Of a DNA stretch of 36,172 nucleotides, positions 1 through 28,915 are shown in pieces; positions within the stretch are counted from its first letter, which is position 1; every line of letters begins with the position of its first letter. Location of the stretch: positions 1 through 36,172 of the forward strand of contig JAFXJP010000009.1 in the NCBI GenBank assembly GCA_017532155.1, read 5' to 3'. The notes under the pieces were generated by a model that worked only from the letters and a program-made list of their open reading frames with translations, was not told where the DNA came from and made no database searches. This DNA comes from Clostridia bacterium (GTDB taxonomy: Bacteria; Bacillota; Clostridia; Christensenellales; Aristaeellaceae). A program made the translations under genes and the position numbers.

Positions 1-137
1 CCTTTGGCAGATAAAGGTGGATGTAGTTCCAATGAGGCACAGAGCGCAGAAGGTTTTAGCCTTCTGCGCGACAATGCCGAATTGTGGACAGCTCGAGGGG
101 CGCTTTTACCTTAAAAGCGTCCCCTCGAACGTCTCCC
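1..137. repeat. Composite hairpin repeat, right end (truncated by the window)
   Basis: Positions 1-90 are the B-module from inside its first hairpin onward and 91-132 the C hairpin; the terminus (reverse GGGGAGACGTTCG) abuts the stop codon of the FAD oxidoreductase. The first 106 bases are identical to 16912-17017. By analogy the rest of a composite repeat, and a convergent gene, should lie to the left of the window. Confidence 0.75.
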
Positions 138-138
138 C

Positions 139-2007
139 TTAATACGCACGCACCTCATACACGCGCACATCCGCATAGCCATGCGTCGCATGCACGCGCA
201 CTTCGATCTCATCACAGACCGTCTTGTCAAAGTCCAGAATATTGTGGCGCTGATAATTGCCGCGCACCTGCTTTTCAGCCACCACTTCGCCGCCCTTCTT
301 GAGCAGCACATCATAATCCTGTACCAGCTCAGGCGCAACGCCCGTGCCCTGCTCCGCCATGCGGTGAGAGGACATGGTCAGCTTAATGCAGTGGTTGAGA
401 TTGGGGTCAAAGGTCAGCCGCACCTGAGAAACCTCCTGCGCCGCATCCCACTTGATGGTCAGTGCCTCGCCGCCCTGCGCAATGCCGTTGGACTGCCAGC
501 AATTCTGGTTGTCGCCCACGCCGCGAGCCACGCCGTTGATGACATTTTCCGCAGGCAGCTTTTCGCTGCTGGCCGTCACAGTCGCCTTCAGCGCCAGATC
601 GGCCGCATCCTCATTCTTGTAGCCGGGAATGTAGCAGTCATCCTTGAGCAGGGTCTGCTGCAGCTCCGTCATATGCTCCATCACGCCACGGGGATCGCAG
701 CCATACTTCTTGCACATGGCAGCGGCAGTACCCACCGCCTGGCCGCCCACAGCGCAGGTACCCATCACGCGGCTGGACGCCATCGCCAGGCGCGACGCGC
801 TCAGGCTGCGGCCGCTGATAAAGAGGTTCTCCATATCCTTGGCCACATAGCTGCGGTAAGGAATGGTGTACAGACCGTCAAAGTCATAGATTTCGCTGGG
901 CATTTTGTCAAAGTCAAACAGACCGCGCGCCACGTGCTTATCCGCCGCCCAGCCGCCGTACGCAACGGCATCGGGGAAAACCTCGTTGTTGATCAGGTCA
1001 TTTTCATTGAGCATGTAATCGCCCACCAGTCGGCGGCTCTCGCGCATACCGGGCAGCATGCCCACCCATTCCAGATCATAGTTCGCCGCGCCGTGGTTGC
1101 CATCGTTCTTGATGTGATCCCAGATGCCGTATACGCACTTGATCAGCTCGTCGCGGATATCCTCGTATTCCTCGATGATGTCGGCCTTTTCGCCCGTCAG
1201 TTCAATCCACCAGTAGCCGTAGTCCACGCAGTAGGAGTCGGTCACCAGGCTCTTGGTAGCGTCATCCATGTTGTCCAGCAGCTCGTCAGCTTCTTCCGCC
1301 AGCTTTTTGCCGGCATCGTCAATCAGGTCGGCATGCTTGCGGTAGCGCAGCTGCTTTTCGGTAAATTTGTAGCTGCCCTTGGGCGCAACAAATTTCACAG
1401 GCTTGCCGCGGTTGACGGCCTTGAACAGAAGCGTATTGCCCATGCGCTCGTTATCGGGCTCATCGGGCGCGTGGGGCTCGTTGAATTCCGCCTTGCACTC
1501 CGTGCCCGTGCGGTAGGGAGCGCCCGCCATGTAGCCCAGCGTGCCGTTGCCCGTGCAATCACAGAAGATGGGCGCGGACAGCGTCCATTCGATCTCCGTG
1601 GTCAGCTGGTAGCACTTGATGGACTTTACGCGCTTGCCTTCCGTATCACAGTCAAACATGGTGGTGTTGAGGAACATGGAAAGATTCTCCTGTTCCTTCA
1701 CAGCGGTATGCAGGATGCGATCCCATACAGACCAGTTGTAGTAGTCGTTATTGCGGCGGTTTTCCAGCAGCAGCTCGCGCAGGATGCCCGTTTCTTCAGC
1801 ATCCCTCTTGCGCATGTTGTTGGACGCGCCGCAGATGTGCATGCGCACCTCGCTGCTGCCGTTGCCGCCAAACACCGGGCGATCCTGTACCAGCGCAGTC
1901 TTAGCGCCATGACGCGCGCTGGCGATCGCCGCGCACAGACCGGTCATGCCGCCGCCCACGACGATCACATCAAACTGAGCCTGCTTTTGCTTTTTACGAA
2001 TTGCCAT
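139..2007 (-). CDS. FAD-dependent oxidoreductase with C-terminal discoidin-like domain
   Basis: 622-residue protein of the FAD_oxidored family. Seen: an N-terminal dinucleotide-binding fold at about residues 13-55 (VVGGGMTGLCAA, then FGGNGSSEVRM) and a second FAD-contact segment CDCTGNGTLGYMAG near residue 150. The last ~130 residues look like an F5/8-type C (discoidin, sugar-binding) sandwich (TVTASSE, ENVINGVARG, then alternating hydrophobic strands). There is no signal peptide, so it should be cytoplasmic. The ATG start has a GGGGG-type ribosome site a few bases upstream. It is transcribed divergently from the metallophosphoesterase gene, from a promoter that contains the GntR operator. 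Inference: it oxidises or isomerises a sugar-derived compound imported by the ABC system to its right; the substrate is unknown. Family is fairly sure, exact reaction is not. Confidence 0.82.
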   Translation of the reverse strand: MAIRKKQKQAQFDVIVVGGGMTGLCAAIASARHGAKTALVQDRPVFGGNGSSEVRMHICGASNNMRKRDAEETGILRELLLENRRNNDYYNWSVWDRILHTAVKEQENLSMFLNTTMFDCDTEGKRVKSIKCYQLTTEIEWTLSAPIFCDCTGNGTLGYMAGAPYRTGTECKAEFNEPHAPDEPDNERMGNTLLFKAVNRGKPVKFVAPKGSYKFTEKQLRYRKHADLIDDAGKKLAEEADELLDNMDDATKSLVTDSYCVDYGYWWIELTGEKADIIEEYEDIRDELIKCVYGIWDHIKNDGNHGAANYDLEWVGMLPGMRESRRLVGDYMLNENDLINNEVFPDAVAYGGWAADKHVARGLFDFDKMPSEIYDFDGLYTIPYRSYVAKDMENLFISGRSLSASRLAMASSRVMGTCAVGGQAVGTAAAMCKKYGCDPRGVMEHMTELQQTLLKDDCYIPGYKNEDAADLALKATVTASSEKLPAENVINGVARGVGDNQNCWQSNGIAQGGEALTIKWDAAQEVSQVRLTFDPNLNHCIKLTMSSHRMAEQGTGVAPELVQDYDVLLKKGGEVVAEKQVRGNYQRHNILDFDKTVCDEIEVRVHATHGYADVRVYEVRAY

Positions 2008-2175
2008 GATTGTATCCCCCCGTAATGTATGTGTACAAATTATTTCCTATTTATAAAACCGGACGAAGACGGAAATGGACAAGCATCCGCCTGTTTACCC
2101 CATTGCACCAGGCCGTCAATTGTAAATAAACATAATGTCCGGTTGCATCCCAGCCCTTTCGAGTACGTTTTTTTC

Positions 2176-2204
2176 ATTGTATCACTTATGAAATCGAAAT
2201 ACAA
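2176..2204 (-). promoter_or_regulatory. Second promoter toward the FAD oxidoreductase
   Basis: Minus-strand TTGTAT (2204-2199), 17-base spacer, TACAAT (2181-2176). It is downstream of the operator-containing promoter and would give a leader of about 160 bases. A degenerate operator-like half site (ATGTCC at 2135-2140) lies just past its expected start point. Confidence 0.5.
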
Positions 2205-2236
2205 GCATAAAACATATGAAAATTTTATATACTCGC

Positions 2237-2248
2237 ATGTCCGAACAT
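2237..2248. promoter_or_regulatory. GntR operator, copy 1
   Basis: The imperfect palindrome ATGTCCGAACAT reads ATGTTCGGACAT on the minus strand. It is identical to the site at 5019-5030, and the identity extends by GC on the same side. Both copies sit between the -35 and -10 boxes of a promoter, the usual place for a steric repressor. The GntR gene at 4233 lies between the two operators. Confidence 0.72.
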
Positions 2249-2252
2249 ACAA
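2247..2252 (-). promoter_or_regulatory. -35 box of operator-controlled promoter for the FAD oxidoreductase
   Basis: On the minus strand TTGTAT (2252-2247), a 17-base spacer and TATAAA (2229-2224) form a sigma-A type promoter. The GntR operator overlaps the last two bases of the -35 box and most of the spacer. Transcription would run toward the oxidoreductase with a long leader. Confidence 0.55.
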
Positions 2253-2356
2253 CCGTATTAATGGCCGAATACTCACAAACTGCTCCGCATATTTTGTCCT
2301 GCGTAAAAAACCCGGTTTTCATCAGAAAAAAACAAACATCATGTATCACAAATGTC

Positions 2357-2385
2357 TTGCAAGATGCCCCTATTGCTGATAAAAT
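2357..2385 (+). promoter_or_regulatory. Promoter of the metallophosphoesterase gene
   Basis: TTGCAA (2357-2362), 17-base spacer, TAAAAT (2380-2385), about 54 bases before the ATG at 2439. The -35 lies in a small palindrome, TCTTGCAAGA. No copy of the GntR operator overlaps it. The rest of 2253-2356 holds nothing I recognise. Confidence 0.5.
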
Positions 2386-2438
2386 AAATACATTCTTAGT
2401 CATATAAACAAAACAAACTATCATGCGGAGGTTTAAAA

Positions 2439-4208
2439 ATGTCTAATTGTAAAATTTCCAAATTCTCAAATTTCCATTTTTTGCGTACAGGCTGTGCAGA
2501 TCTCACTTCTCCGCTGGGCGGCGAAGCCCTGCAGTTTCATAATTCCAACAAAGATTTCGCGATGGATTATCTCAAAAGCGATACGCTGCTGCCTGACGGC
2601 GATTTTTCCGTTCAATTCTATATGCGCACCTATGCCGGCGGCTGCAACGGCATTCCGCTGCCCGAAGGCACGCTGCCCAAGGGTGACGATCCCATCGATC
2701 CCGCCAAGCGCTCGCTTCTGCAAAGCCTTTACGGCGGCACGGTGATGGCCAACTGCCCCGGCCGCGTGTTCTCCACGGGCTTCAGCATTCAGTGCAATCA
2801 GCCGCAGTCCTTTTTCACCGTCAATTTCCAGACCGATCAAATGGACGCGCCCGTTTCCCTTCGCGGCATGCGCGAGATTTGCGACGATATTTGGCATTTG
2901 ATCACCGTCAACGTCCAGCGCGACGGTCTTTTGAGCGTATATTGCGACGATCAGCTGCTCAGATCCGCCGATATTTCCGCCCATGCCGGCGAATCGCTGG
3001 GCAATCAGCCTGTTTTCATCGGCTGCGATACAATGAAGCTGTACGGCCTTGGCAAGGTGGATCTGGCGCATTTTGCGCTGCGTAACGGCGTTATTGACGA
3101 AAAAGAAATCGCCTCTGTTTATCAGTATCAGGCGGTGCTGGCGCTTGCGCAGCAGATCCGCGATCGCCGCCTGGAAGCCTGCCCCATTTTCGATCAGGCC
3201 GCCGTCGCCGCACTGCTTGAAAAAACCGCCAAAACCCTTGAAAATCTCGATATTTCCAGCGATTGCAAGGCTGCTTACGAAAGCCTGCAAACCGCCTATG
3301 AAGAAACGCTGCTTTGCACGGTCAAGCCCGATCTGAAGCTCCTGGTCGTTGCCGACACACACTGTGACGAAGCGGAGAATCACCGCACCGTCGCCTTCCG
3401 CAACGCGCTTAAGTGGTCGCAGGAGCTGGGTATCGACGCCATGCTTCATGCCGGCGACTACTCGCAGTACGGCCGCGAGGGCGATTTCAAGGGCTTCTGG
3501 GATTCCATGCGCCTGCATTTCAACGATAAGCCCTTCTTCCTGACCATCGGCAACCACGAAACGCTGCACAACGACGCAAAAACGCTGTGCAAGCGTCAGT
3601 GCGACTGGCTGCGCGAATTCCACATGGTCGACGAAAATCACGATAAAATGTACTATGAGGGCGAGGTCAACGGCCACCATGTGCTGGTTCTCTGCCAGTA
3701 TTACGACTACGAAGTCACCGGCTACAAGCGCATGTGGCAGTTCGCCGGCAAGATCGACCGTGAGCAGATGGACTGGATCCGCGAAAAGGTAAATGCCTAC
3801 TGCGGCCAGGGCAAGCCCGTATTCCTGGTCATTCACAATGCGCACGGCCCGCTGCTGAAGGAGCAGTCCAAGAACAACTGCACGCACGACTCAATCATCC
3901 TGCGCGGCGATGAACTGTACGATATCCTGCGCGATCACAAGGATATCATCTTCTGCACAGGCCATGTACATCACGGTCTCGGCGCCATTTCCGGTCTTTT
4001 CCCCTCCGAAGGATATCATGTACTGGATATCACTGGCTTCAAAAATGGCGCATACGGCCGCGGTTATGATGAAAACAGCGAAACCGCAGCCGTTCGCCAT
4101 CCGGGCTATTTCCTTTATGTTTTCGGCCGTACGCTGCTGCTGCGCGCGGTTGACTTTGCTACCCGTGAATGGCTGCCCGTCTACGATCAGATTGTAACTC
4201 TGCCCTGA
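2439..4208 (+). CDS. Metallophosphoesterase with N-terminal LamG-like domain
   Basis: 589 residues, no signal peptide. The first ~220 residues resemble a concanavalin/LamG-like sandwich (FSVQFYMRTY, then WHLITVNVQRDG and LLSVYCDDQLL, the usual laminin-G strand pattern). After a helical linker, residues ~300-589 form a calcineurin-like phosphoesterase: VVADTHCD (metal site 1), HAGDYSQ, GNHE, VIHNAHG and GHVHHG are all present, so the binuclear metal centre is intact. Ribosome site GGAGG lies ahead of the ATG. It is followed 24 bases later by the GntR gene, so the two are probably cotranscribed. Inference: a cytoplasmic phosphodiesterase or phosphatase acting on a sugar-linked phosphate, with LamG helping to bind the glycan. 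Enzyme class is sure; substrate is open. Confidence 0.85.
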   Translation: MSNCKISKFSNFHFLRTGCADLTSPLGGEALQFHNSNKDFAMDYLKSDTLLPDGDFSVQFYMRTYAGGCNGIPLPEGTLPKGDDPIDPAKRSLLQSLYGGTVMANCPGRVFSTGFSIQCNQPQSFFTVNFQTDQMDAPVSLRGMREICDDIWHLITVNVQRDGLLSVYCDDQLLRSADISAHAGESLGNQPVFIGCDTMKLYGLGKVDLAHFALRNGVIDEKEIASVYQYQAVLALAQQIRDRRLEACPIFDQAAVAALLEKTAKTLENLDISSDCKAAYESLQTAYEETLLCTVKPDLKLLVVADTHCDEAENHRTVAFRNALKWSQELGIDAMLHAGDYSQYGREGDFKGFWDSMRLHFNDKPFFLTIGNHETLHNDAKTLCKRQCDWLREFHMVDENHDKMYYEGEVNGHHVLVLCQYYDYEVTGYKRMWQFAGKIDREQMDWIREKVNAYCGQGKPVFLVIHNAHGPLLKEQSKNNCTHDSIILRGDELYDILRDHKDIIFCTGHVHHGLGAISGLFPSEGYHVLDITGFKNGAYGRGYDENSETAAVRHPGYFLYVFGRTLLLRAVDFATREWLPVYDQIVTLP

Positions 4209-6982: not shown

Positions 6983-7003
6983 AAGGTTAACGCTGCTGTG
7001 GCA

Positions 7004-7233
7004 GCTACACCTCATCCGCCGCACTTTGTTCGGCACCTTCCCCTCAAGGGGAAGGCTCTAAGCACCGCATCACAAAGGCTTCCCCTCGAGGGGGAACGGA
7101 ATTCGCCGCTGCCCTTGGGCAGATACAGGCGAATGAAGTTCCAATGAGGCACAGAATGAAGTGAACTCTCGTTCACTTCATGACAATGCCGAATTGTGTC
7201 CGCTGTCACCGCAGGGGACTGATGAGGTGTAGC
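7004..7233. mobile_element. MITE-like element, TIR GCTACACCTCATC, carrying a B-module
   Basis: Starts with GCTACACCTCATC (7004-7016) and ends with its exact reverse complement (7221-7233), so it has 13-base perfect terminal inverted repeats. The left half (to about 7096) matches the element at 16533-16661, including CCCTCAAGGGGAAGG and GGCTTCCCCTCGAGGGG. The right half is replaced by a copy of the structured B-module (7098-7201). No coding capacity. It lies between the second permease and the binding protein of one transporter operon and may affect their relative expression. Confidence 0.75.
7098..7201 (+). repeat. B-module, copy 2 (structured repeat)
   Basis: Same fold as the copies at 1, 9319 and 16897: stem TTCGCC/GGCGAA around CTGCCC...GGGCAG, then invariant CAATGAGGCACAGA, a variable hairpin (ATGAAGTGAAC/GTTCACTTCAT) and invariant GACAATGCCGAATTG. 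Both variable stems differ from the other copies but still pair. Confidence 0.75.
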
Positions 7234-7264
7234 CGTCCGCAGACGGCGTTATCTTCCCGTTCAT

Positions 7265-8816: not shown

Positions 8817-8844
8817 GCCCCTTCCGCAAGGAAGGGGCTTTTTT
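8817..8844 (+). terminator. Terminator of the transporter operon
   Basis: Stem GCCCCTTCC / GGAAGGGGC with a GCAA tetraloop followed by six T. A smaller inverted repeat (TAATCAAT/ATTGATTA) overlaps the stop codon. Confidence 0.92.
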
Positions 8845-8856
8845 GTTGGGAAAGGA

Positions 8857-8900
8857 ACATTCGAGAGGGCGGCTTTGGAGCCCAAAGCCCCCTCTCGAGC
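8857..8900 (-). repeat. C hairpin, inverted copy
   Basis: Reads on the minus strand as GAGCTCGAGAGGG, GGCTTTGG, a short loop, CCAAAGCC and CCCTCTCGAATGT, the same architecture as the C hairpins at 91, 17002 and 26050 but with different paired bases. It lies just past the binding-protein terminator. Confidence 0.65.
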
Positions 8901-8947
8901 TCACCCCGAAAAGCAGTCTTGGGTTGGCTTGTTTCGGCAGGCTATAC

Positions 8948-9011
8948 GAAAAATAGGCCAGGAATCTGGATTGCAAGCAAGCTTGCCATCCAGATTCCCG
9001 GCTTATTTTTC
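8948..9011. repeat. E hairpin, copy 1 (E2 position)
   Basis: 64-base near-perfect inverted repeat beginning GAAAAATA and ending TATTTTTC, with apex GCAAGC-AA-GCTTGC. A-tract on one side and T-tract on the other would make it a terminator in both directions. Confidence 0.7.
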
Positions 9012-9183
9012 TGCGCGCTTTGCGCGCCTGGACGGCAAAGCCGTCCGAGCCTGCCGCACTTGTTGTATAGCAGCGTCCGCGGAGGACCAGCGTTTCGCTG
9101 CAGCGAAACAAGCGCAGCCTTTCGCACAAGACACCAAAGCGGCAGTCCGCGGAGCTGCGCTCCGCGAGTTTGCGAAGCAAACT

Positions 9184-9245
9184 GAAAAAGGGGCTTGGAA
9201 GCCGAGCGTGAGCTTGCTCACAGATCGGATTCCAAACCCTTTTTC
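9184..9245. repeat. E hairpin, copy 2 (E1 position)
   Basis: Begins GAAAAAGGG and ends CCCTTTTTC, apex GTGAGC-TT-GCTCAC. The arms include TTGGAA / TTCCAA and CCGA / TCGG. Stem bases differ from the other five copies but pair. Confidence 0.7.
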
Positions 9246-9318
9246 ATAAAACTGCCGCGTCAACCACGCAGCCACCTTACAATGCCAACGCTGGCTTTCG
9301 GGTGGGGCTTGGGGAAGC

Positions 9319-9422
9319 GGAATCCGCCGCTGCCCTTTGGCAGATAAAGGCGGATGCAGCTTCAATGAGGCACAGAGTAAAGTGAACTCTCGTTCACTTT
9401 ACGACAATGCCGAATTGCGGAC
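9319..9422 (+). repeat. B-module, copy 3 (structured repeat)
   Basis: Stem TCCGCC/GGCGGA, invariant CAATGAGGCACAGA, variable hairpin TAAAGTGAAC-TCTC-GTTCACTTTA, invariant GACAATGCCGAATTG. Compare copy 4, where TCCACC pairs with GGTGGA. Confidence 0.75.
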
Positions 9423-9423
9423 A

Positions 9424-9457
9424 GGCTTTGGCCTTCCAAAGCAGCCTCCCCAACGTA
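9424..9457 (+). repeat. C hairpin, degenerate copy
   Basis: GCTTTGG-CCTT-CCAAAGC followed by AGCCTCCCCAACGT, ending eight bases before the stop codon of the aldo/keto reductase. The outer GAGG/CCTC arm is largely lost. Confidence 0.45.
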
Positions 9458-9464
9458 TCCCCGT

Positions 9465-10490
9465 TTAAATCTTCGCCTCTCCGCTGATAATCCGGCGGTA
9501 ATCCTCCAGATTTTTCTTCAGCAGCTCCGGCACATTCAAATGATACGGACAGTGCTGCATGCACTTGCCGCAATGCAGGCAGCCCGCAATGCGCTCCATT
9601 TTCTCCTGCCATTGCTCGCTGAGGAAGTTTTCAGAGGGCGAACGGCGAATCAGCTGCGCCATGCGCGCGCTGTTGTTGATCTCAATGCCCGCCGGGCACG
9701 GCATGCAGTAGCCGCAGCCGCGACAGAAATCGCCCAGCAGCTCCGCGCGGTCTTTTTCAATCAGCGCGGTAATTTCCTCCGTCATCGTGGGCGGATTCTT
9801 GATGTAGGAAAGGAACTCATTAAGCTCGCTCTCGCGCTGAATGCCCCAGATCGGCAGGGGATTCACAAACTGCGCAATGTACGCGTACGCCGCCGCGCTA
9901 TTGGTCAAAAGGCCGCCGGACAGCGCCTTCATAGCAATAAAGCCAATGTCCTTTTCCTTGCAGCGGTTCACCAGTGCAATGTCGCGTTCCGTCGCCAGAT
10001 AGCAGAAGGGGAACTGCAGCGTGTCGTACAATCCGCTCTCCACAATCTCCTCCGCGATGCCGATTTTGTGCGCGGTGATGGAAATATTGCGGATCTTTCC
10101 CTGCTTTTTCGCCTCTTCCATGCATTCGTACATGCCCGTGCCGTCGCCGGGACGATAGCACTGATCCACGCAGTGGAACTGATAAATATCCAGATAATCC
10201 GTCTTGAGATTGCGCAAAGAGGTCTCCAGATCCTTCCAGAAGCCCTCAGGCGTCTTGGCCATGGTCTTGCTCGCCAAATAATACTCCTTGCGGCGATGCG
10301 CAATGGACTGGCCGATCTTCTCCTCGCTGTCGGTATACGCGCGGGCGGTGTCAATAAACGTCATGCCGCCGTCCAGCGCGCGGTTCAGCAGCTTTCCCGC
10401 TGCCTCAAAGCTGATGCGCTGAATGGGCAGCGCGCCAAAGGCGTTCTGCTCGGTCACAATGCCCGTGCGGCCCAATTTTACTTTTGCCAT
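9465..10490 (-). CDS. Aldo/keto reductase with C-terminal 4Fe-4S ferredoxin domain
   Basis: 341 residues. Residues 1-250 form the aldo/keto reductase barrel with the catalytic tetrad visible: D47 in DTARAY, Y52, K75 in LASK and H106 in YQFHC. The C-terminus has two cysteine clusters, CRGCGYCMPCP and CLHCGKCMQHCP, each able to hold a 4Fe-4S cluster, so electrons may come from ferredoxin-like carriers instead of NADPH alone. This architecture is common in anaerobic Clostridia. The ATG at 10490 is chosen because GCGGAGG lies ten bases upstream; six more in-frame codons upstream lack a site. Its own promoter lies at 10523-10551. Physiological substrate unknown. Confidence 0.92.
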   Translation of the reverse strand: MAKVKLGRTGIVTEQNAFGALPIQRISFEAAGKLLNRALDGGMTFIDTARAYTDSEEKIGQSIAHRRKEYYLASKTMAKTPEGFWKDLETSLRNLKTDYLDIYQFHCVDQCYRPGDGTGMYECMEEAKKQGKIRNISITAHKIGIAEEIVESGLYDTLQFPFCYLATERDIALVNRCKEKDIGFIAMKALSGGLLTNSAAAYAYIAQFVNPLPIWGIQRESELNEFLSYIKNPPTMTEEITALIEKDRAELLGDFCRGCGYCMPCPAGIEINNSARMAQLIRRSPSENFLSEQWQEKMERIAGCLHCGKCMQHCPYHLNVPELLKKNLEDYRRIISGEAKI

Positions 10491-13938: not shown

Positions 13939-13975
13939 AAGCAATTGCGTACAGAGGAAAATCCCTTCTGCAACG

Positions 13976-14066
13976 CGCCGCTTCCCTACGGTAGGATGAT
14001 CTACACAGGTTCAAGGGGACCGGCGAAACACGCCATCTCAGCCACTTTTGTGACGCCCCCAGCGGG
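13976..14066 (-). promoter_or_regulatory. TPP riboswitch (THI element)
   Basis: Read on the minus strand it has the hallmark blocks in order: CTGGGGGCGTC, then GGCTGAGATGG (pyrimidine-sensor helix), CCCCTTGAACCTG, a short arm with GATCATCC, and TACCGTAGGGAAGCG closing the P1/P4-P5 side. It lies between a consensus promoter and a terminator ahead of thiT, so it should act at transcription level: high TPP turns thiT off. Confidence 0.95.
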
Positions 14067-14079
14067 TATGTACAACCAA

Positions 14080-16212: not shown

Positions 16213-16244
16213 GAAGGGGAACGAGGGGAGGACGAAGGGAGAAC

Positions 16245-16271
16245 GGTACTTTCTTGAGTCAAGAAAGTACC
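16245..16271. repeat. D palindrome, copy 1
   Basis: Perfect 27-base palindrome: GGTACTTTCTTGA, a central G, and the exact reverse complement. The copy at 25547 has GTTCC in place of GGTAC on one arm and the matching change on the other. Confidence 0.85.
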
Positions 16272-16326
16272 AAAGAACCAGTCGTTTATGTTTGTTGGCT
16301 GCGTTATTGTCGCGGCAGTCTATATC

Positions 16327-16390
16327 GAAAAAGAACCGGAGAAAACGGATGCAAGCAAGCTTGCCCCGATTTTTCTCCGGTTTCTTTTTC
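16327..16390. repeat. E hairpin, copy 3 (E1 position)
   Basis: Begins GAAAAAGAACCGGAGAAAA and ends TTTTTCTCCGGTTTCTTTTTC (one-base bulge), apex GCAAGC-AA-GCTTGC. Confidence 0.72.
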
Positions 16391-16532
16391 GGCGTGCTTC
16401 GCACGCTCGCGGAGCTACGCTCCGCAGACTGCCACTTTGGTGTCTTGTGCGTTGGTGACGCCGTTTTTTCTGCGGAAAAAACGAGCGGGTTTCGCGCTGC
16501 GGCGCGGGATGGGATAACGCCAGCTGCGGCTG

Positions 16533-16661
16533 GCTACACCTCATCCGAGGCGCTTCGCGCCCCACCTTTCCCTCAAGGGGAAGGTTTTTCTGTTGTCGTC
16601 TCCCAAAAGGCTTCCCCTCGAGGGGAAGCTGTCGCCTGAAAGGCGACTGATGAGGTGTAGC
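16533..16661. mobile_element. Small MITE-like element, 129 bp, nested in composite repeat
   Basis: Perfect 13-base terminal inverted repeats GCTACACCTCATC (16533-16545) and GATGAGGTGTAGC (16649-16661). Inside are CCCTCAAGGGG and CCCCTCGAGGGG palindromes and a GTCGCC/GGCGAC hairpin. It shares its left half with the element at 7004 and is absent from the matching place in the copy at 25538, which shows it as an insertion. Confidence 0.8.
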
Positions 16662-16786
16662 GCTCCGCAGAGCGCGTTCCCCAGCCCGCTCGTTTCGCCG
16701 AAGCGTTGCGGCGGTCCCCCGCGGACGCTACCACACAACAAATGCGGCAGGCCGATGGCGCAGCCATCGCATCCGCGAAGCGGATA

Positions 16787-16847
16787 GAAAAAGGGCCTGG
16801 AAGATGGAAGGCAAGCTCGCTTGCAATCCAGATTCCAGACCTTTTTC
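16787..16847. repeat. E hairpin, copy 4 (E2 position)
   Basis: Begins GAAAAAGGGCCTGGAA and ends TTCCAGACCTTTTTC, apex GGCAAGC-TC-GCTTGC. Confidence 0.7.
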
Positions 16848-16896
16848 GTACAGCCTGCCGAAACAAGCCAACCAAAAGATCGGTTTTCGGGGGACC

Positions 16897-17001
16897 GAAA
16901 TCCACCGCTGCCCTTTGGCAGATAAAGGTGGATGTAGTTCCAATGAGGCACAGAGCGCAGAAGGTTTTAGCCTTCTGCGCGACAATGCCGAATTGTGGAC
17001 A
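16897..17001 (+). repeat. B-module, copy 4 (structured repeat)
   Basis: Stem TCCACC/GGTGGA, invariant CAATGAGGCACAGA, variable hairpin GCGCAGAAGG-TTTTAG-CCTTCTGCGC, invariant GACAATGCCGAATTG, then GTGGAC. Its part from 16912 is identical to window positions 1-106 (into the C hairpin), so these two copies are recent relatives. Confidence 0.8.
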
Positions 17002-17043
17002 GCTCGAGGGGCGCTTTCACCTTAAAAGCGGCCCCTCGAACGT
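17002..17043 (+). repeat. C hairpin, copy 3
   Basis: GCTCGAGGGG, CGCTTT.. loop ..AAAGCG, CCCCTCGAACGT, ending eleven bases before the stop codon of the caspase-like gene. Confidence 0.75.
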
Positions 17044-17053
17044 CTCTCCCCCG

Positions 17054-18505
17054 TCACTCAATCGTTATTATCTGACTATTCTCAATATACGTAAGGCCGC
17101 CCATCTTGCAGGAAACCTCGGCGTAATACTCGCCGTCCGGCACCCGCTCGCCGGACGCATCGCAGCCATCCCAGTAGAAAATACTGCCTTCCACTTCCAT
17201 GCCCAACGGCCGCGAAGGCACGCGATAGCCAAGCCTGCGAATCATTTCGCCTGCTTTATTGCGCACAACCACCGTCAGGCTGCAGGGAAATGCATGCGCC
17301 ACGCGAATGGCCACTTCTTCGCCCTCAGCGGGCGAAAACATCGCAAAGCATTCCACCCGCAGGCGCGGATCCTCATACTCCGGCTGTACCGAAATCACGC
17401 GGCTGCCAGCCAGCGTGGCATGACGGCCTTCCATCGCCACGATCTGCAAAAGTACATAGCCGGTCGGCGCGTCATCCTCGCTGACAATCGTAATGGAGCG
17501 CTGATAGCGTCCGGGCAGCAGAATGCCGTTGCCCGTCTCCGTATCCGGCACCACCTGCGGCGATTCAAAGCGCCATCGGCCATCCTTGAAATACACCAGC
17601 TGATACTGCACGCGCACGGTACGATGCACTGTAAAGCTGAAATACAGCGTATCCTCGCCCGCCTTGAGCACATTGGTATCCAGTTCTATTTCGCCCACAG
17701 GCCTCTCGCCCGTACTTTCCGCCAGCGGATCATACACAAACAGCGGGAAATCACTCTCCTGCGGATATACATGCGCCGTAGACGCGCCGTGCGTCTCCAG
17801 AATGCCCTGATACGCCTCCTTCAGCGTGATCGTGCTGTCGCCGTCCAGATCAAACGCGCGCGTGCGCAAGCCCTCGCTGAGACCATCGGCAAAGTAGCTG
17901 CCGCCGTTGCTGGCGCCCGCCGTCCATGAAAAGCTGTTCTCGCTGGCGCCTGCGCTGGTCAAAACCACATAATCCCCGCCCTGAAACCAGTTTTTCATGC
18001 GGTTATCCCATTCGCCCTTGCCAATGAACGCGCCGCTGTTGCAGGCGTCCAAAATGACAATTTTCTGTCCCGGCACCTGATCCAGCGCTGCACGCAGCAC
18101 TGAAGCAGAAAGCGTCTCCTCGTGTTGGCCGTCAGACAATACAAGTCCCGGCTCGAAACTGATGCGGTCGTTCAGGCCGTGCGTACATATATAAAGCAAT
18201 GAAACGTCGCCGTCATCTGCCTGCGCAAAAGCGCCCGCAATGGCGGACAGCAAAAACTCTACGCTGGATATGCCCGTTTCATAGGCATAAATGCCCTCAT
18301 AGCCGCGGCTGTCTGTGCGCAGGATTTCCTGCATGCGCCGCACATTCATGCGCGCAGAAGGCGTTGTATCGGCATGCGTGAGAAAGTCATCGCAGCCCAC
18401 CAGCAGCGCGCGGCGTTCTGTATCGCCGATAATCTCCGCGTGCGCAAAAAGTGCAGGCAGCGTCAGCACGCATGCTATTATCAAAGCCAGCAAGCGCTTT
18501 CTCAC
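17054..18505 (-). CDS. Secreted caspase-like (C14) protein with EF-hand loop and FlgD/Ig-like C-terminus
   Basis: 483 residues. Signal peptide to about residue 23 (ALFAHA, then E). Residues 31-255 form a caspase-hemoglobinase fold: catalytic H109 in LYICTHG and C155 in ILDACNSG, with both flanking strands typical of clan CD. A canonical 12-residue EF-hand loop, DLDGDSTITLKE (219-230), lies in the caspase domain, as seen in calcium-regulated metacaspases. Residues ~385-483 resemble a FlgD-type Ig domain (FYWDGCDASGERVPDGEYYAEV region). The start is GTG, chosen from AAGGGG seven bases upstream and the signal peptide. Promoter at 18553-18582. Likely an extracellular calcium-activated cysteine peptidase; target unknown. 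Confidence 0.87.
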   Translation of the reverse strand: MRKRLLALIIACVLTLPALFAHAEIIGDTERRALLVGCDDFLTHADTTPSARMNVRRMQEILRTDSRGYEGIYAYETGISSVEFLLSAIAGAFAQADDGDVSLLYICTHGLNDRISFEPGLVLSDGQHEETLSASVLRAALDQVPGQKIVILDACNSGAFIGKGEWDNRMKNWFQGGDYVVLTSAGASENSFSWTAGASNGGSYFADGLSEGLRTRAFDLDGDSTITLKEAYQGILETHGASTAHVYPQESDFPLFVYDPLAESTGERPVGEIELDTNVLKAGEDTLYFSFTVHRTVRVQYQLVYFKDGRWRFESPQVVPDTETGNGILLPGRYQRSITIVSEDDAPTGYVLLQIVAMEGRHATLAGSRVISVQPEYEDPRLRVECFAMFSPAEGEEVAIRVAHAFPCSLTVVVRNKAGEMIRRLGYRVPSRPLGMEVEGSIFYWDGCDASGERVPDGEYYAEVSCKMGGLTYIENSQIITIE

Positions 18506-24395: not shown

Positions 24396-25559
24396 ATGCA
24401 ATTTCCTCTGCCCGCAGAAGTGCTCAAAGCGCTTGATATGATCACCGCCCGGGGCTATGAAGCCTATGTGGTGGGCGGCTGCGTGCGCGATTTGCTGATG
24501 GGCATTCCCCCGCACGATTACGACATCTGCACCAGCGCCCTGCCGGAGGAAACAAAGGCCTGCTTTTGCGGCGAGCGCGTGATCGAAACGGGCATTCAGC
24601 ACGGCACGGTCACGGTGCTGATGAACGGCGAGATGCTTGAAATCACCACCTTCCGCACAGAGGGTGATTATCTGGACGGGCGCCATCCTTCCTCCGTTTC
24701 CTTTACGCGCAGCATTGAAAACGACCTGATGCGCCGCGATTTTACGGTCAACGCCATGGCATATCACCCTGAAAAAGGGCTGGTGGATCTGTACGGCGGT
24801 CGGGAGGATCTGCAGGATAAACGCCTGCGCTGCGTGGGCGATGCGCCTGAGCGCCTGACGGAGGACGCGCTGCGGATCCTGCGCGCCATGCGTTTTTCCG
24901 CGCAGCTGAGCTTTGCGGTGGAGGAAAGCACCGCGCAGGCGATGCATAATCTCAAAGACCGGCTTTCGCTCATCAGCCGTGAGCGCATCGCGCAGGAGCT
25001 TTTGCGCATGATTGCCTTCCCGGCGGCTGCAAATGTTTTGCAGCAGTTTGAAGATATATTTTTTGCCGCGCTGCCGCAGTGCAAATGCATCGATATTACA
25101 GCGCTTTCTGCGCTGCGTGACGGCGATGAAATCACGCGAATGGCGGCGCTTTTGCATTGCAATGACACGCAATCCGCCGACGCTGCGCTGCAGTCGCTCA
25201 AGCTGCCCACCATTTTTCAGCGCAACTGCCTGCAGCTGATTGAGCACTACGCCGCGCCGCTTGAGGCCGCTACGGTGCCGCTGTGGCTGGCGCGCCTGGG
25301 CGAAGAGCAATTCCGCCGGCTGCTGCTTTTGCAGCACAACACGGCGCTTTTGCCCGAAATCGAACGCGCGTTGGCGGAGAATCTGCCGCTGCAAGTGCGT
25401 GATCTGGCAATCAACGGCCGTGATCTGATAGCGGCGGGCGTGCCGGCCGGGCCAATGGTAGGCGAGGTGCTGGCGCGGCTGCATGAGATGGTTTTGCGGC
25501 GGGAAGTGGAAAATGACAGGGGCAGGTTATTGGAAGCAGGGAGGACGTTCCTTTCTTGA
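24396..25559 (+). CDS. cca: tRNA nucleotidyltransferase / poly(A) polymerase family (CCA-adding type)
   Basis: 387 residues. The GG motif VVGGCVRDLLMG (25-36) and catalytic D41-Y-D43 (PHDYDICT) are typical of class II nucleotidyltransferases; RRDFTVNAM, the flexible RMxRA-like RAMRFSAQ segment and ERIAQELLRM follow in order. It would repair or add the CCA end of tRNA. The ATG follows AAAGGAT. The last codons (GRTFLS and stop) lie in the end of the composite repeat: the left terminus GGGAGGACGTTC and the D palindrome supply them, so the native C-terminus may have been replaced. Whether it adds CC, A or CCA cannot be told. Confidence 0.92.
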   Translation: MQFPLPAEVLKALDMITARGYEAYVVGGCVRDLLMGIPPHDYDICTSALPEETKACFCGERVIETGIQHGTVTVLMNGEMLEITTFRTEGDYLDGRHPSSVSFTRSIENDLMRRDFTVNAMAYHPEKGLVDLYGGREDLQDKRLRCVGDAPERLTEDALRILRAMRFSAQLSFAVEESTAQAMHNLKDRLSLISRERIAQELLRMIAFPAAANVLQQFEDIFFAALPQCKCIDITALSALRDGDEITRMAALLHCNDTQSADAALQSLKLPTIFQRNCLQLIEHYAAPLEAATVPLWLARLGEEQFRRLLLLQHNTALLPEIERALAENLPLQVRDLAINGRDLIAAGVPAGPMVGEVLARLHEMVLRREVENDRGRLLEAGRTFLS

Positions 25560-25573
25560 GTCAAGAAAGGAAC
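25547..25573. repeat. D palindrome, copy 2
   Basis: Perfect 27-base palindrome: GTTCCTTTCTTGA, a central G, and the exact reverse complement. It contains the stop codon of cca at 25557-25559. Confidence 0.85.
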
Positions 25574-25630
25574 AAAGAACCTGCGGTGGCATTGGAAGCT
25601 GGCTGTGTAATTGACGCGGCAGTCTGTATT

Positions 25631-25695
25631 GAAAAAGAAACCGGAGAAAACGGATGCAAGCAAGCTTGCCCCGATTTTTCTCCGGTTTCTTTTTC
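25631..25695. repeat. E hairpin, copy 5 (E1 position)
   Basis: Begins GAAAAAGAAACCGGAGAAAA and ends in its near-complement TCTCCGGTTTCTTTTTC, apex GCAAGC-AA-GCTTGC. Nearly identical to the copy at 16327. Confidence 0.75.
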
Positions 25696-25939
25696 GGCGG
25701 GCTTCGCACGCTCGCGGAGCTGCGCTCCGCGGACTGCCGCTTTGGTACAGGGTGCGTTTGGGTAGCGCCGTTTTTTCTGCGGAAAAAACGAGCGGGAGGG
25801 TACGCCGCTGCGACAGCGTGATAGCGTGTAAAGCCCGTTCGTTTCGCCGCAGCGAAACGGCGGCCCTCCGCGAGCAATAGCAGTCTACATCAGTGGCAGG
25901 CCCGGACGGCTGCGCCGTCCGGCGCGCACATCGCGCGCA

Positions 25940-26003
25940 GAAAAAGAGAGCGGATGCCATCGGGGCGAGCTTGCTCGCATCCGTGGAATCCACTCTCTTT
26001 TTC
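25940..26003. repeat. E hairpin, copy 6 (E2 position)
   Basis: Begins GAAAAAGAGAG and ends CTCTCTTTTTC, apex GGCGAGC-TT-GCTCGC, with an inner GGAT/ATCC stem. Paired bases differ from the E2 copies at 8948 and 16787. Confidence 0.7.
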
Positions 26004-26049
26004 TATTATCCTGCCAAACCCAACCAACCAAAAACTGGTTTTCGAAGGA

Positions 26050-26091
26050 GCTCGAGGGAGGCTTTTACCTTAAAAGCCGTCCCTCGAACGT
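26050..26091 (+). repeat. C hairpin, copy 4
   Basis: GCTCGAGGGA, GGCTTTTA-CCT-TAAAAGCC, then GTCCCTCGAACGT, ending 13 bases before the stop codon of the penicillin-binding protein gene. Confidence 0.75.
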
Positions 26092-26103
26092 CCTCCCCTG
26101 CTA

Positions 26104-28845
26104 TCATCGCGCAGCTGCCATGGCCTGCGTCAGATAACTCATCGCGCCGGTCAGCTCCGCCGCGCTGGGGTTGCCCACCATCACCGCCGCCAGAGACGAA
26201 ATGGCGCTCTGCAGCAGCGCATAGCCGCCATGCGAAGGCGACAAGCCCGCCAATTGCGCCTGTGCGCTGGCCAGCAGACGCTCTGCATCGGGCAGGAGCT
26301 GATTTTTAACAATCGGATCGCTGACCGCGCCGCCAGAGGGCGCATCATGTGCCGTGCAGGTGCGCTGCGCCAGAAGCGCGTTATTGCGGTTGGCGTCGTT
26401 CGTCAGCCGCAGCGTAGCAAACGCACCCAGGTACTCCTCCAGCACATCCTCATACTGCGTACCGAGGAACCGGTACAGCGGATGCCCCTGCGGAATGGTC
26501 ACAACGCCTGCCTGCGCACCGGGGCAATTTGCCGTCGCCAGCTTCCCGGTCACAGTGCACAATGTTGTCTCAGTATGCATCTGGCAGTAGGTTGTCGGCG
26601 CACCGGACTGCGGCCAGTAATCGGTATACACCTTATAGCCTGCCGCATCATTTTTACATGCCTCGGTTGCCAGCTGTCCGCTTACGCCGCAGGTGGTCAC
26701 ACGCACCAGGCCGTAATCGCTGTGAACGCCCTCCATAATCGCACGGCTCATCAGGTTTTTCTCCTCATGAATGCGGCTCATGAATGTACGCCAAAGCTTG
26801 GCCGCACTGTTTCCGCCCGTTGTTTTAGAGGAAAGCGACTTATAATTATCATGACCGATCCACACCGAGCTCGCGTACCAGCCCGTAAGGCCTGAGAAGA
26901 ACACGCCCTTCTGATCGGAGTTTGTGCCCGTCTTGCCGGCTACCGTCTGTCCGGGAATCTTGGCCGATGTGCCCGTGCCGGAGGTTACGGCGTCCTTCAT
27001 CATATCCACCGTCAGATAGGCCGTGGATGGGCTGAACACCTGATAGCGCGTCTGATTGGCATGCGCATCATAAATAACGTTGCCGTTGCTGTCTGCAATG
27101 CCCAGGAAAGAAATGGGCTGCTGATACACGCCTGTATTGCCCAGCACGCCGAAGGCCACCGTCATTTCAAGCGGCGTTAAGCCGCTGGAGCCCAGCGCCA
27201 CGCCAAAGGGCGTCGCGTTGATGTGCTTATCGGAAGCGCCCATCAGCTGCAGGAACTTGACGGCGTTTTCTACCCCCACATAGTTCATCAGCGCATAGGC
27301 CGCCGCCGTATTATCGCTCTTCACCAGCGCCTGACGCAGCGTCTCCGGGCCGCGATAGCTGGAGCCGCCGTAATTCTTGGGCCAGGTCTCGTTGAGATGA
27401 TTATCCAGATACCCCGTGATAGGCAGCGGCATATTATACACAATCCCGCTGCCGCCCAGGCCGCTGAGCTCAATGGCCGGCGCGTACACCGTGAGCGGCT
27501 TGATGGACGAGCCGACAGGCATGTTCATATCCACCGCGCGGTTGAGCGTCTTGCGGCGCGTAGGCTCTGTGCGGCTGCCGACAATCGCCTTGATTTCGCC
27601 TGTACGGTAATCCAGCACCACCGCAGCCGCCTGCGGCTGAACAATCTCATCATAGGTGCCGTCAGCGTTGCGCGCGCGGTAAATCTTGTCGTCCGGATCG
27701 CGCAAAGAGGGATACGAGGCGTAATTGTAAAGCGTTTCCTCTACAATCTGCTGAATTTCGGTATCCAGGCAGAGGAACACATGATAGCCGCCCGTGCGCA
27801 GTTCATTTTCCATGCGGTTGCGGTTGGCGGATGTGTTTTCCAGGTTATTGAGCTTGAGCAGCGTCTGCACCACATCGCTGATGGCATATTCCACATAATG
27901 CACATAATCGTAGAGCTTGCCGCTGTCGGGCTCCTTTTCTAGCACATTTGCCGTCGCCGGGTCAAGCGCTGCGATATATTCATCGTGCGTGATGAACTGG
28001 TTTTCGTACATCATGCGCAGCGCATAGTCCGTGCGGTTGTTGGTGATGGCCGCATAATCCGTCGTTTCCGACGAGCGCAGATAATAGTTGCGGCGGGGAT
28101 TGTAGTAATAGGGATTGGTGCAAAGCCCCGCCAGCATGGCGCATTCGCGCAAAGAAAGCTCCATCGGCTTTTTGCCAAAGTAGCCCTGCGCGGCGGTATA
28201 TACGCCGTAGTAGTTTTCGCCCAGATAGATGGTATTCAGGTAGCTCTCCAGGATCTGATCCTTGTTATACTGCGTTTCCAGCTGCATGGCAAGGTAGGCT
28301 TCCTGAATCTTGCGCTTGTAAGACTGCTCGCTGGAGAGGATGGTATTTTTGATCAGCTGCTGGGTGATGGTGCTGCCGCCCTGCTGCGAGCCGGAAAGAA
28401 AATTGGTGACAAACGCGCCAATAATGCGCTTGACGTCAATGCCGCTGTGGTTATAAAAGCGCGCATCCTCTACCGCCACAAAGGCGTACTGCAGTCTTTT
28501 GGGCATTTCGCTGATGGAGATCATCACGCGATCCTCTGTGCCCTTGTAATCGGTAATCAGATTGCCGTTTGCATCATAGATAAAAGAGGTTTGCGCCTGA
28601 TCATCAATGAGCGTGAGATCCAGCTGCGGCGCTGTATTGACATATGCGCGCGCAATGCCCACAACCGCGCCAACGCCGCTGAGGCCCAGCATCAGTATCA
28701 GCAGCACCAGCATGCGGATGGAATTGACCAGCACAGAGCAAACAAAGCTCGGGCGACGAAGCCTGGGCTTAAAGATGCTGCGCGGCGGCAAGGTATCAAA
28801 GCCGTCGTACAGCTCATAGTCTGTACGGCGAGAACGATTGCTCAT
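26104..28845 (-). CDS. Class A penicillin-binding protein (bifunctional)
   Basis: 913 residues. One membrane span at about 36-66. Glycosyltransferase (GT51) motifs: EDARFYNHSGID, GGSTITQQLIKN and KIQEAYLAMQLE. Transpeptidase motifs: SSIK in MPVGSSIKP, SDN and KTGT. The C-terminal ~180 residues after the transpeptidase are Cys-containing (CGVSGQLATEACKND, CTVTGKLATANCPG) and end in an Ala-rich helix; the short repeat G-x-L-A-T-x-x-C may be a disulfide-linked surface module. The ATG at 28845 is chosen because the promoter's -10 box covers the upstream in-frame ATGs; GAAGGAGG lies twelve bases before it. It builds and crosslinks peptidoglycan, probably PBP1A/PonA-like. Confidence 0.93.
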   Translation of the reverse strand: MSNRSRRTDYELYDGFDTLPPRSIFKPRLRRPSFVCSVLVNSIRMLVLLILMLGLSGVGAVVGIARAYVNTAPQLDLTLIDDQAQTSFIYDANGNLITDYKGTEDRVMISISEMPKRLQYAFVAVEDARFYNHSGIDVKRIIGAFVTNFLSGSQQGGSTITQQLIKNTILSSEQSYKRKIQEAYLAMQLETQYNKDQILESYLNTIYLGENYYGVYTAAQGYFGKKPMELSLRECAMLAGLCTNPYYYNPRRNYYLRSSETTDYAAITNNRTDYALRMMYENQFITHDEYIAALDPATANVLEKEPDSGKLYDYVHYVEYAISDVVQTLLKLNNLENTSANRNRMENELRTGGYHVFLCLDTEIQQIVEETLYNYASYPSLRDPDDKIYRARNADGTYDEIVQPQAAAVVLDYRTGEIKAIVGSRTEPTRRKTLNRAVDMNMPVGSSIKPLTVYAPAIELSGLGGSGIVYNMPLPITGYLDNHLNETWPKNYGGSSYRGPETLRQALVKSDNTAAAYALMNYVGVENAVKFLQLMGASDKHINATPFGVALGSSGLTPLEMTVAFGVLGNTGVYQQPISFLGIADSNGNVIYDAHANQTRYQVFSPSTAYLTVDMMKDAVTSGTGTSAKIPGQTVAGKTGTNSDQKGVFFSGLTGWYASSVWIGHDNYKSLSSKTTGGNSAAKLWRTFMSRIHEEKNLMSRAIMEGVHSDYGLVRVTTCGVSGQLATEACKNDAAGYKVYTDYWPQSGAPTTYCQMHTETTLCTVTGKLATANCPGAQAGVVTIPQGHPLYRFLGTQYEDVLEEYLGAFATLRLTNDANRNNALLAQRTCTAHDAPSGGAVSDPIVKNQLLPDAERLLASAQAQLAGLSPSHGGYALLQSAISSLAAVMVGNPSAAELTGAMSYLTQAMAAAR

Positions 28846-28886
28846 AAAGGATTTGCTGCCTCCTTCAAAGTTTGGCGGACGCATCA

Positions 28887-28915
28887 ATTATAGCATAATT
28901 CATGCCGTCAGGCAA
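28887..28915 (-). promoter_or_regulatory. Promoter of the penicillin-binding protein gene
   Basis: Minus-strand TTGCCT (28915-28910), 17-base spacer, TATAAT (28892-28887). It leaves a leader of about 35 bases and rules out the in-frame start at 28887. Confidence 0.75.

Follow-up and report, generated by a model that had tools for sequence, protein, structure and literature searches.

A dispersed inverted-dimer repeat behind gene ends of a Clostridia bacterium and its relatives, with a predicted role in two-way termination

The stretch of DNA analysed here (the window; 36,172 nucleotides) is contig C48 of the source genome, a MAG of 2.02 Mb in 62 contigs that is 82.5% complete. Three full copies of a repeat and a partial one at the contig edge were originally predicted in it, and sequence searches confirmed all four as real and mutually related (Table 1). 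Gene calling, with a codon model that took five Pfam-confirmed genes as seeds, likewise confirmed that the three full copies all lie between convergent genes. At the rightmost copy, the stop codon of the upstream ORF (24396-25559; TGA at 25557-25559) lies inside the alpha terminal hairpin, and the alpha unit is ordered as purine-rich end, terminal hairpin, spacer and four-way junction; at the other end, the beta terminal hairpin is 16 bases from the stop of a minus-strand gene (26104-28887). The beta end had been noted to stop within about 15 bases of minus-strand stop codons, and does so at 5, 9 and 11 bp from the stops at 139, 17054 and 26104, with a weaker beta-end match (9412-9458, below the parsing cut-off) 7 bp from the stop at 9465. 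The gene to the left of the second copy retains its own terminator at about 8817-8845. Other features of the window include a TPP riboswitch on the minus strand (13966-14070; Rfam RF00059) and, adjoining the third copy, a minus-strand gene (17054-18505) with caspase/CHAT-like and FlgD Ig-like Pfam matches.

Table 1. Repeat copies and their parts in the window
Feature	Position	Strand	Basis or composition
Alpha unit (left half)	25538..25797	+	nhmmer LH 1-256 at 25539-25797; structure-model match 25617-25738 (+)
Alpha terminal hairpin, 12-bp stem	25547..25573	+	Fold, ORF, sequence
E1, long A-tract...T-tract hairpin, proposed bidirectional terminator	25631..25695		20-nt arms fully complementary
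Dimer centre	25798..25833		Gap separating the unit matches of both halves
Beta unit (right half, inverted)	25834..26098	-	nhmmer RH 1-259 at 25834-26093; structure-model match 25895-26016 (-)
E2, second long A-tract...T-tract hairpin	25939..26004		32-nt arms, 81% complementary
Beta terminal hairpin	26051..26087	-	Sequence, fold
Second copy	8848..9463		Beta unit 8855-9114, alpha-type junction 9091-9303, H 9312-9421, weak beta-type terminus
Third copy	16225..17052		Alpha unit 16237-16489, nested other repeat, beta junction 16685-16894, H, beta terminus 16994-17045
Partial copy, contig edge	1..137	-	H 1-89 and beta terminus 83-134
H copies	7091-7199, 9312-9421, 16890-16999, 1-89		

The two halves of the repeat are homologous, which makes it an inverted dimer of a single ~255-bp unit: in iterated nhmmer searches of the source-genome loci, each half recovered the same places in opposite orientation. 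A unit consists of a terminal hairpin followed by a four-way junction, the latter composed of a closing stem, a long A-tract/T-tract hairpin and two small hairpins. There are two unit types, alpha and beta, which differ in their terminal hairpin. The fixed module order read from the window's copies proved wrong: among 64 places parsed, alpha+beta is the commonest arrangement, and beta+beta, alpha+alpha, single units, contig-end fragments, chimeras (L050 and L059, where a beta end is joined to an alpha-type junction) and optional inserts such as the 110-bp H also occur. Elements usually end in a purine-rich GRGGNNACG-like stretch followed by the hairpin. The termini are inverted repeats as predicted, but GGGGAGGACGTTC did not hold up as their general exact end: the pattern GGRGAGGACGTTC has 14 matches in the genome at up to one mismatch (5 of them exact, and some of the 14 outside elements) against 5 for the reversed control, and alpha and beta ends in the source genome have only their first bases in common.

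Smaller features recur within and around the units. By eye, the stretch that separates the stop codon from the alpha hairpin (e.g. window 16213-16247) often contains one to three tandem GRGGRACG-like repeats, and the long and small hairpins in the alignments belong to a limited set of types found in varied combinations, some of them common to the source genome and that of a sister species (G007), as if swapped like cassettes. H is a conserved module that was matched 18 times in the source-genome loci fetched, mostly inside beta ends; its copy at 7091-7199 is nested in a different repeat, making a repeat within repeats. Another palindromic repeat (CTACACCTCATC...GATGAGGTGTAG) lies at about 6996-7244 of the window behind a gene end, at 16510-16680 nested in the third copy, and in the centre of element L109 of G007.

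Copies elsewhere in the source genome are abundant. Searches with the window's three copies matched more than 60 places, mostly just behind stop codons, taking the best 40 of 81-94 candidates per search, and a covariance model of the junction found 116 junctions; about 3 kb on each side was fetched per cluster of matches. Many contigs begin in or near elements (C5, C9, C17, C28, C30, C43, C51-C54 and the window's left edge), which suggests that the repeat interrupts the assembly and makes all these copy counts lower bounds. After 16 of the 64 places without a gene on one side were left out, 32 of the remaining 48 elements were found between convergent genes, 15 between tandem and one between divergent genes, which supports the original picture of a BIME-like repeat filling convergent junctions. 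Unit-free junctions of the same loci are convergent in 11 of 217 cases. In 14 of the 15 tandem elements one end is no more than 26 bp from a stop; in the remaining one the distance is 59 bp. Contigs C11 and C47, taken whole (225 kb), contain 195 junctions, of which 31 are convergent, 3 with a unit and 28 without; compared with these the window is locally dense in elements, and the unit is therefore not the general terminator of this genome.

Adjacency to stop codons is tight. Among 106 source-genome units with a complete terminus, 75 have it 2-25 bp behind a stop, where chance would place 1.1% of all points and 6.4% of intergenic ones; 86 lie between -60 and 70 bp from the stop of the gene reading in (median 9). 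The corresponding figure for G007 is 31 of 47 terminus-complete units at 2-25 bp. Seven source-genome units and three in G007 include the stop codon itself (negative distance).

The fold is better conserved than the letters. In alignments of 42 of 57 listed alpha and 39 of 54 listed beta sequences, 27 of 48 and 22 of 40 predicted pairs, respectively, have changes on both sides, and RNAfold returned the terminal hairpin and the junction (closing stem, long hairpin, two small hairpins) in examples from the source genome, G007, RUG13305 and S32M_St_metabat_16. With a strand-neutral stem set, no excess of G-U over A-C was seen on the gene-sense strand (27 vs 36 unique-arm cases); selection on the gene-sense RNA strand alone is therefore not supported, which leaves two options, that both strands matter or that the palindromes are maintained at the DNA level. 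RNAalifold pair tables contain more G-U, and were set aside as a sign of RNA-strand bias since their pairs were chosen with G-U allowed. The closing-stem letters GGCAG...CTGCC are retained in nearly all aligned junctions. Termination does not explain the closing stem, as it is complete only downstream of the proposed stop point. A match to a known Rfam family would have offered another explanation, and none was found above gathering score: the window gave only the TPP riboswitch, eight element-bearing loci gave only an FMN riboswitch, and the element at E<=1 had two matches, both far below gathering.

The even G-U and A-C counts, the retained closing-stem letters and the preference for convergent junctions would all suit a structure acting in DNA, such as a cruciform or a topoisomerase or nucleoid-protein site placed between convergent genes, where positive supercoils accumulate. 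We hold this to be quite improbable, given that 15 of 48 elements lie between tandem genes, 14 with an end no further than 26 bp from a stop, and that conserved A/T tracts, together with the ordinary terminators that orthologues have in the corresponding position (see below), point to transcription.

Relatives were searched with the covariance model, built from 40 source-genome and G007 sequences, in which RNAalifold omitted the second small hairpin. Seven of 11 genus genomes matched, that is, the source genome (116 junctions) and six of the ten others (G003, 61; G007, 46; G004, 25; G006, 17; G002, 13; G008, 13), and G001, G005, G009 and G010 gave no match. The family-wide and order-wide searches used stricter filters and the best 30 and 14 candidates per genome, respectively, so absences in them are soft: 8 of 120 family genomes matched (the source genome, three others from its genus, three from a second one, g46, with 5-22 junctions each, and G074 of a third genus with a single one), as did 4 of 248 order genomes (the source genome, two of g46, and a single one outside the family, G299). 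A DNA similarity search had found nothing in G002, G006 and G008, all of which the covariance model later matched. We inspected 43 of 82 matches in G002, G004, G006, G055, G093 and G137, mostly ones with flanks: 24 are convergent, 13 tandem and 6 at ends, and none of the 37 with both flanks is divergent (three G055 junctions are counted twice, as both dimer halves matched). By eye, the folds of seven loci in relatives have the same arrangement, and one locus of G004 (L172) has near-perfect inverted-repeat ends. A search for the alpha-hairpin motif over 84,980 species genomes, the source possibly left out, returned 27 stretches in four MAGs, namely RUG13305, RGIG7448, S32M_St_metabat_16 and HGW-Firmicutes-9; the one stretch in the last was set aside as a relative's element because its surroundings differ. 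Plasmid and phage collections gave no match, viral contigs did not match the alpha motif, and no description of the element was found in the open-licence PubMed Central literature. We conclude that this is a real structured 3'-end repeat, so far of two genera of one family.

As to function, a hairpin with a T-tract follows the stop within 260 nt in 60 of the 82 unit-adjacent genes with enough downstream sequence. In 41 of those 60 it lies at 140-165 nt, the position of the long A/T-tract hairpin, and in 3 of the 82 (counted within the 60) between stop and unit; in the other 22 the detector found none. The detector is not sensitive, as it reported a hairpin and T-tract within 120 nt at 20 of 56 unit-free convergent ends. 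A generic terminator scan of the window's element gave 5 sites per kilobase vs 1.7 in shuffles, flagging E1 on both strands and E2 on neither.

Orthologues in G007 allow the unit to be compared with an ordinary terminator gene by gene, which makes the choice between a selfish repeat and an adopted terminator testable. Fourteen of the 16 orthologue pairs tabulated with a unit in one species only were read by eye, and in 6 the other species has an ordinary terminator. Eleven of the 14 were tabulated with the unit in the source genome. Here G007 has an ordinary terminator in four (L126, L117, L123 and L074; in L126 it stands behind the stop of the orthologue of the window's PolyA_pol-type nucleotidyltransferase gene), an alpha or beta end, either proper or degenerate, in four (L119, L118, L111 and L116), and reads on into the next gene in two (L114 and L074), L125 being the remaining pair. 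Two of the three pairs tabulated with the unit only in G007 have an ordinary terminator in the source genome (L026 and L029). In the third, the orthologues in L031 and L125, both species have a native terminator and then an alpha end, so unit and terminator can coexist. Position, the A-tract/T-tract hairpins and the ordinary terminators of some orthologues thus argue for the two-way terminator first suggested for the repeat; it is the best-supported role, and termination itself is something we infer. We also infer that the module replaced the ordinary terminator rather than the reverse.

Many unit positions look old. Among 95 reciprocal best hits between the source genome and G007, both gene sets coming from loci chosen around elements, the unit is present in both species in 19, only in the source genome in 12, only in G007 in 4 and in neither in 60 (odds ratio 24, Fisher p 1.4e-8), so that 19 of 31 comparable unit-bearing genes have a unit in the sister species too. 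Of the typed pairs, 14 of 18 have the same unit type, alpha or beta, in both species (p 0.03), or 15 of 19 with one further pair typed by eye (p 0.02). One of the four disagreeing pairs is the window's PBP gene, whose unit is beta in the source genome and alpha in G007, which argues against strict inheritance of the unit.

Sequence has not been retained in the same way. Orthologous units are not closer in sequence (0.63-0.86 identity in 7 comparable pairs; the mean over all source-G007 unit pairs is 0.67 for alpha and 0.70 for beta), and fourfold sites of the two species are 0.625 identical, with saturation at 0.35. That the 7 pairs come near the fourfold-site value, and that Watson-Crick pairing is high and free of strand bias, could be read as palindromes perfected by mutational template switching with no selection involved; we find this very hard to believe, as it leaves unexplained the stop-codon adjacency, the ordinary terminators at the same place, the retained A/T tracts and the hairpin order in relatives.

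Rearrangement breakpoints coincide with elements. Compared with contig C30 of G007, source contig C16 is inverted from its element at 20.7 kb to that at 33.4 kb, and both genomes have elements at both junctions. Two further comparisons (C46, 34-49 kb, vs C41 of G007, and C20 vs C6) are compatible with inversion between elements, a single G007 junction being visible in each. The window's PBP gene and genes of L069 have different partners in L080 and L075. Seven of 8 unit-bearing genes in rearranged places retain their unit type, the PBP gene being the exception. Such breakpoints might suggest a site-specific inversion system with the elements as its recombination sites, to which we assign next to no probability, since homologous recombination between dispersed inverted repeats accounts for them.

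A non-autonomous transposon targeting 3' ends had also been proposed for the repeat. Inverted ends and dispersed copies agree with this part of the original prediction; the search for a mobiliser of the Y1 family gave it no support. The Y1 transposase family PF01797 had no match in the source genome, G002, G003, G004, G006 and G007 (E. coli control positive), and a RAYT/Y1 transposase was therefore rejected as mobiliser for the source and these five junction-bearing relatives, with the proviso that a repeat-flanked transposase gene could be missing from a MAG of this completeness. Two of the 11 genus genomes have a match: a full one in G008, which carries junctions and whose protein looks, from its ORF, like plain IS200 TnpA, and a fragment in G009, which has no junction match. 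No target-site duplication was evident in one element compared by eye. A native terminator past the far end of tandem elements was hit in 1 of 15, inside another repeat, and promoter-like sequence of the next gene often starts near that end (by eye). In locus L127 of G007 (932-3084), a beta unit and, about 1.8 kb away, an inverted and incomplete alpha unit bracket a 475-aa ORF that has imperfect ~40-bp direct repeats on its flanks; this longest ORF was rejected as a transposase carried by the element, as its repeats look BspA-like by eye.

A selfish MITE- or TIR-like element, mobilised in trans and tolerated just behind stops with terminator function as a by-product, is in our estimation unlikely, though by some way the strongest of the competing explanations. 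It would account for a dispersed, multi-copy repeat with inverted GRGG..ACG-type ends and nested inserts, for the near-perfect terminal inverted repeats of L172, for near-identical copies within the genome (identity up to 0.99 between alpha units), for genes that take their stop codon from the element, and for a motif resembling GGGGWSAS, which some tyrosine-transposase TIRs carry (PMC3733652), at 26 of 152 termini vs a mean of 5 in mononucleotide shuffles. It sits poorly with the lack of Y1 matches in the six genomes named above, with the seemingly plain TnpA of G008 and the fragment in G009, which has no junction match, with the failure to find native terminators displaced beyond tandem elements, and with positions that are often common to both species, 19 of 31 genes sharing the unit.

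It is known that bacterial genomes contain dispersed palindromes, and whether these are parasites or parts of genes is often unclear. We somewhat favour the reading in which the present unit is a dispersed 3'-end module, predicted from sequence to be a two-way terminator and spread or homogenised by one route or another. Each unit would be a module of a gene's 3' end, beginning a few bases past the stop codon, with the long hairpin usually about 140-165 nt past the stop; flanked by an A-tract and a T-tract, this hairpin could serve as an intrinsic terminator whichever way it is transcribed. The inverted pair of units between convergent genes would then make a double two-way terminator for both, and at a set of gene ends of this lineage the module stands in the place that ordinary terminators have in relatives. 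Copies are dispersed and partly homogenised, and may have spread either by transposition in trans or by recombination and gene conversion; recombination between dimers may yield inversions after which a gene usually retains its unit type and gains a new partner. More tentatively, and with the balance tilting against it, these could be lineage-wide modules, one fold having taken over termination at gene ends in two genera, being inherited with the gene while sequence and hairpin cassettes turn over, and directing partner-swapping inversions without breaking gene ends. What makes the repeat of interest is that position and fold are common to species while sequence turns over, in a structural family without an Rfam model match that is also a source of inversions leaving genes intact.

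Several known systems resemble this 3'-end module in part. Bidirectional intrinsic terminators consist of an A-tract, a stem and a T-tract; the unit has the same parts, but within a larger conserved four-way junction repeated genome-wide. MITEs are dispersed, have inverted ends and lack an internal gene. The repeat is likewise dispersed with inverted ends, and the window's copies have no gene inside, but is not known to have a transposase with matching ends here, and no target duplication was evident in the one element compared. DNA uptake sequences, according to PMC1852404, are highly conserved, about 9-11 nt long, and form terminators as inverted pairs; they too are dispersed repeats whose inverted pairs make terminator hairpins behind genes, whereas in the present repeat the fold is maintained and most of the sequence is not. 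Some TIRs of TIRYT transposases are self-complementary, some carry GGGGWSAS and many occur as dimers or clusters, as described in PMC3733652. The unit is similarly self-complementary and dimeric, with a GGGGWSAS-like motif at some termini, but neither the source genome nor G007 gave a Y1 gene and only 26 of 152 ends fit the motif, in part. The same paper describes REP/BIME palindromes as dispersed, often in pairs of opposite orientation, downstream of coding regions and predominantly between unidirectional and convergent genes; REPs are 20-40 bp long and include kinds with an unpaired GTAG or CGTC tag, those of the GTAG type accompany RAYT transposases, and G-T pairing in their stems is taken as support for an RNA function (PMC3733652). 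The unit shares the inverted pairs and the intergenic position downstream of genes, and differs from GTAG REPs in that no RAYT was detected in the source genome and unit stems have no G-U bias. Where a REP is a single 20-40 bp palindrome, the unit is ~255 bp long and joins a terminal hairpin to a four-way junction. Its layout is BIME-like, yet it is larger and maintained by its fold.
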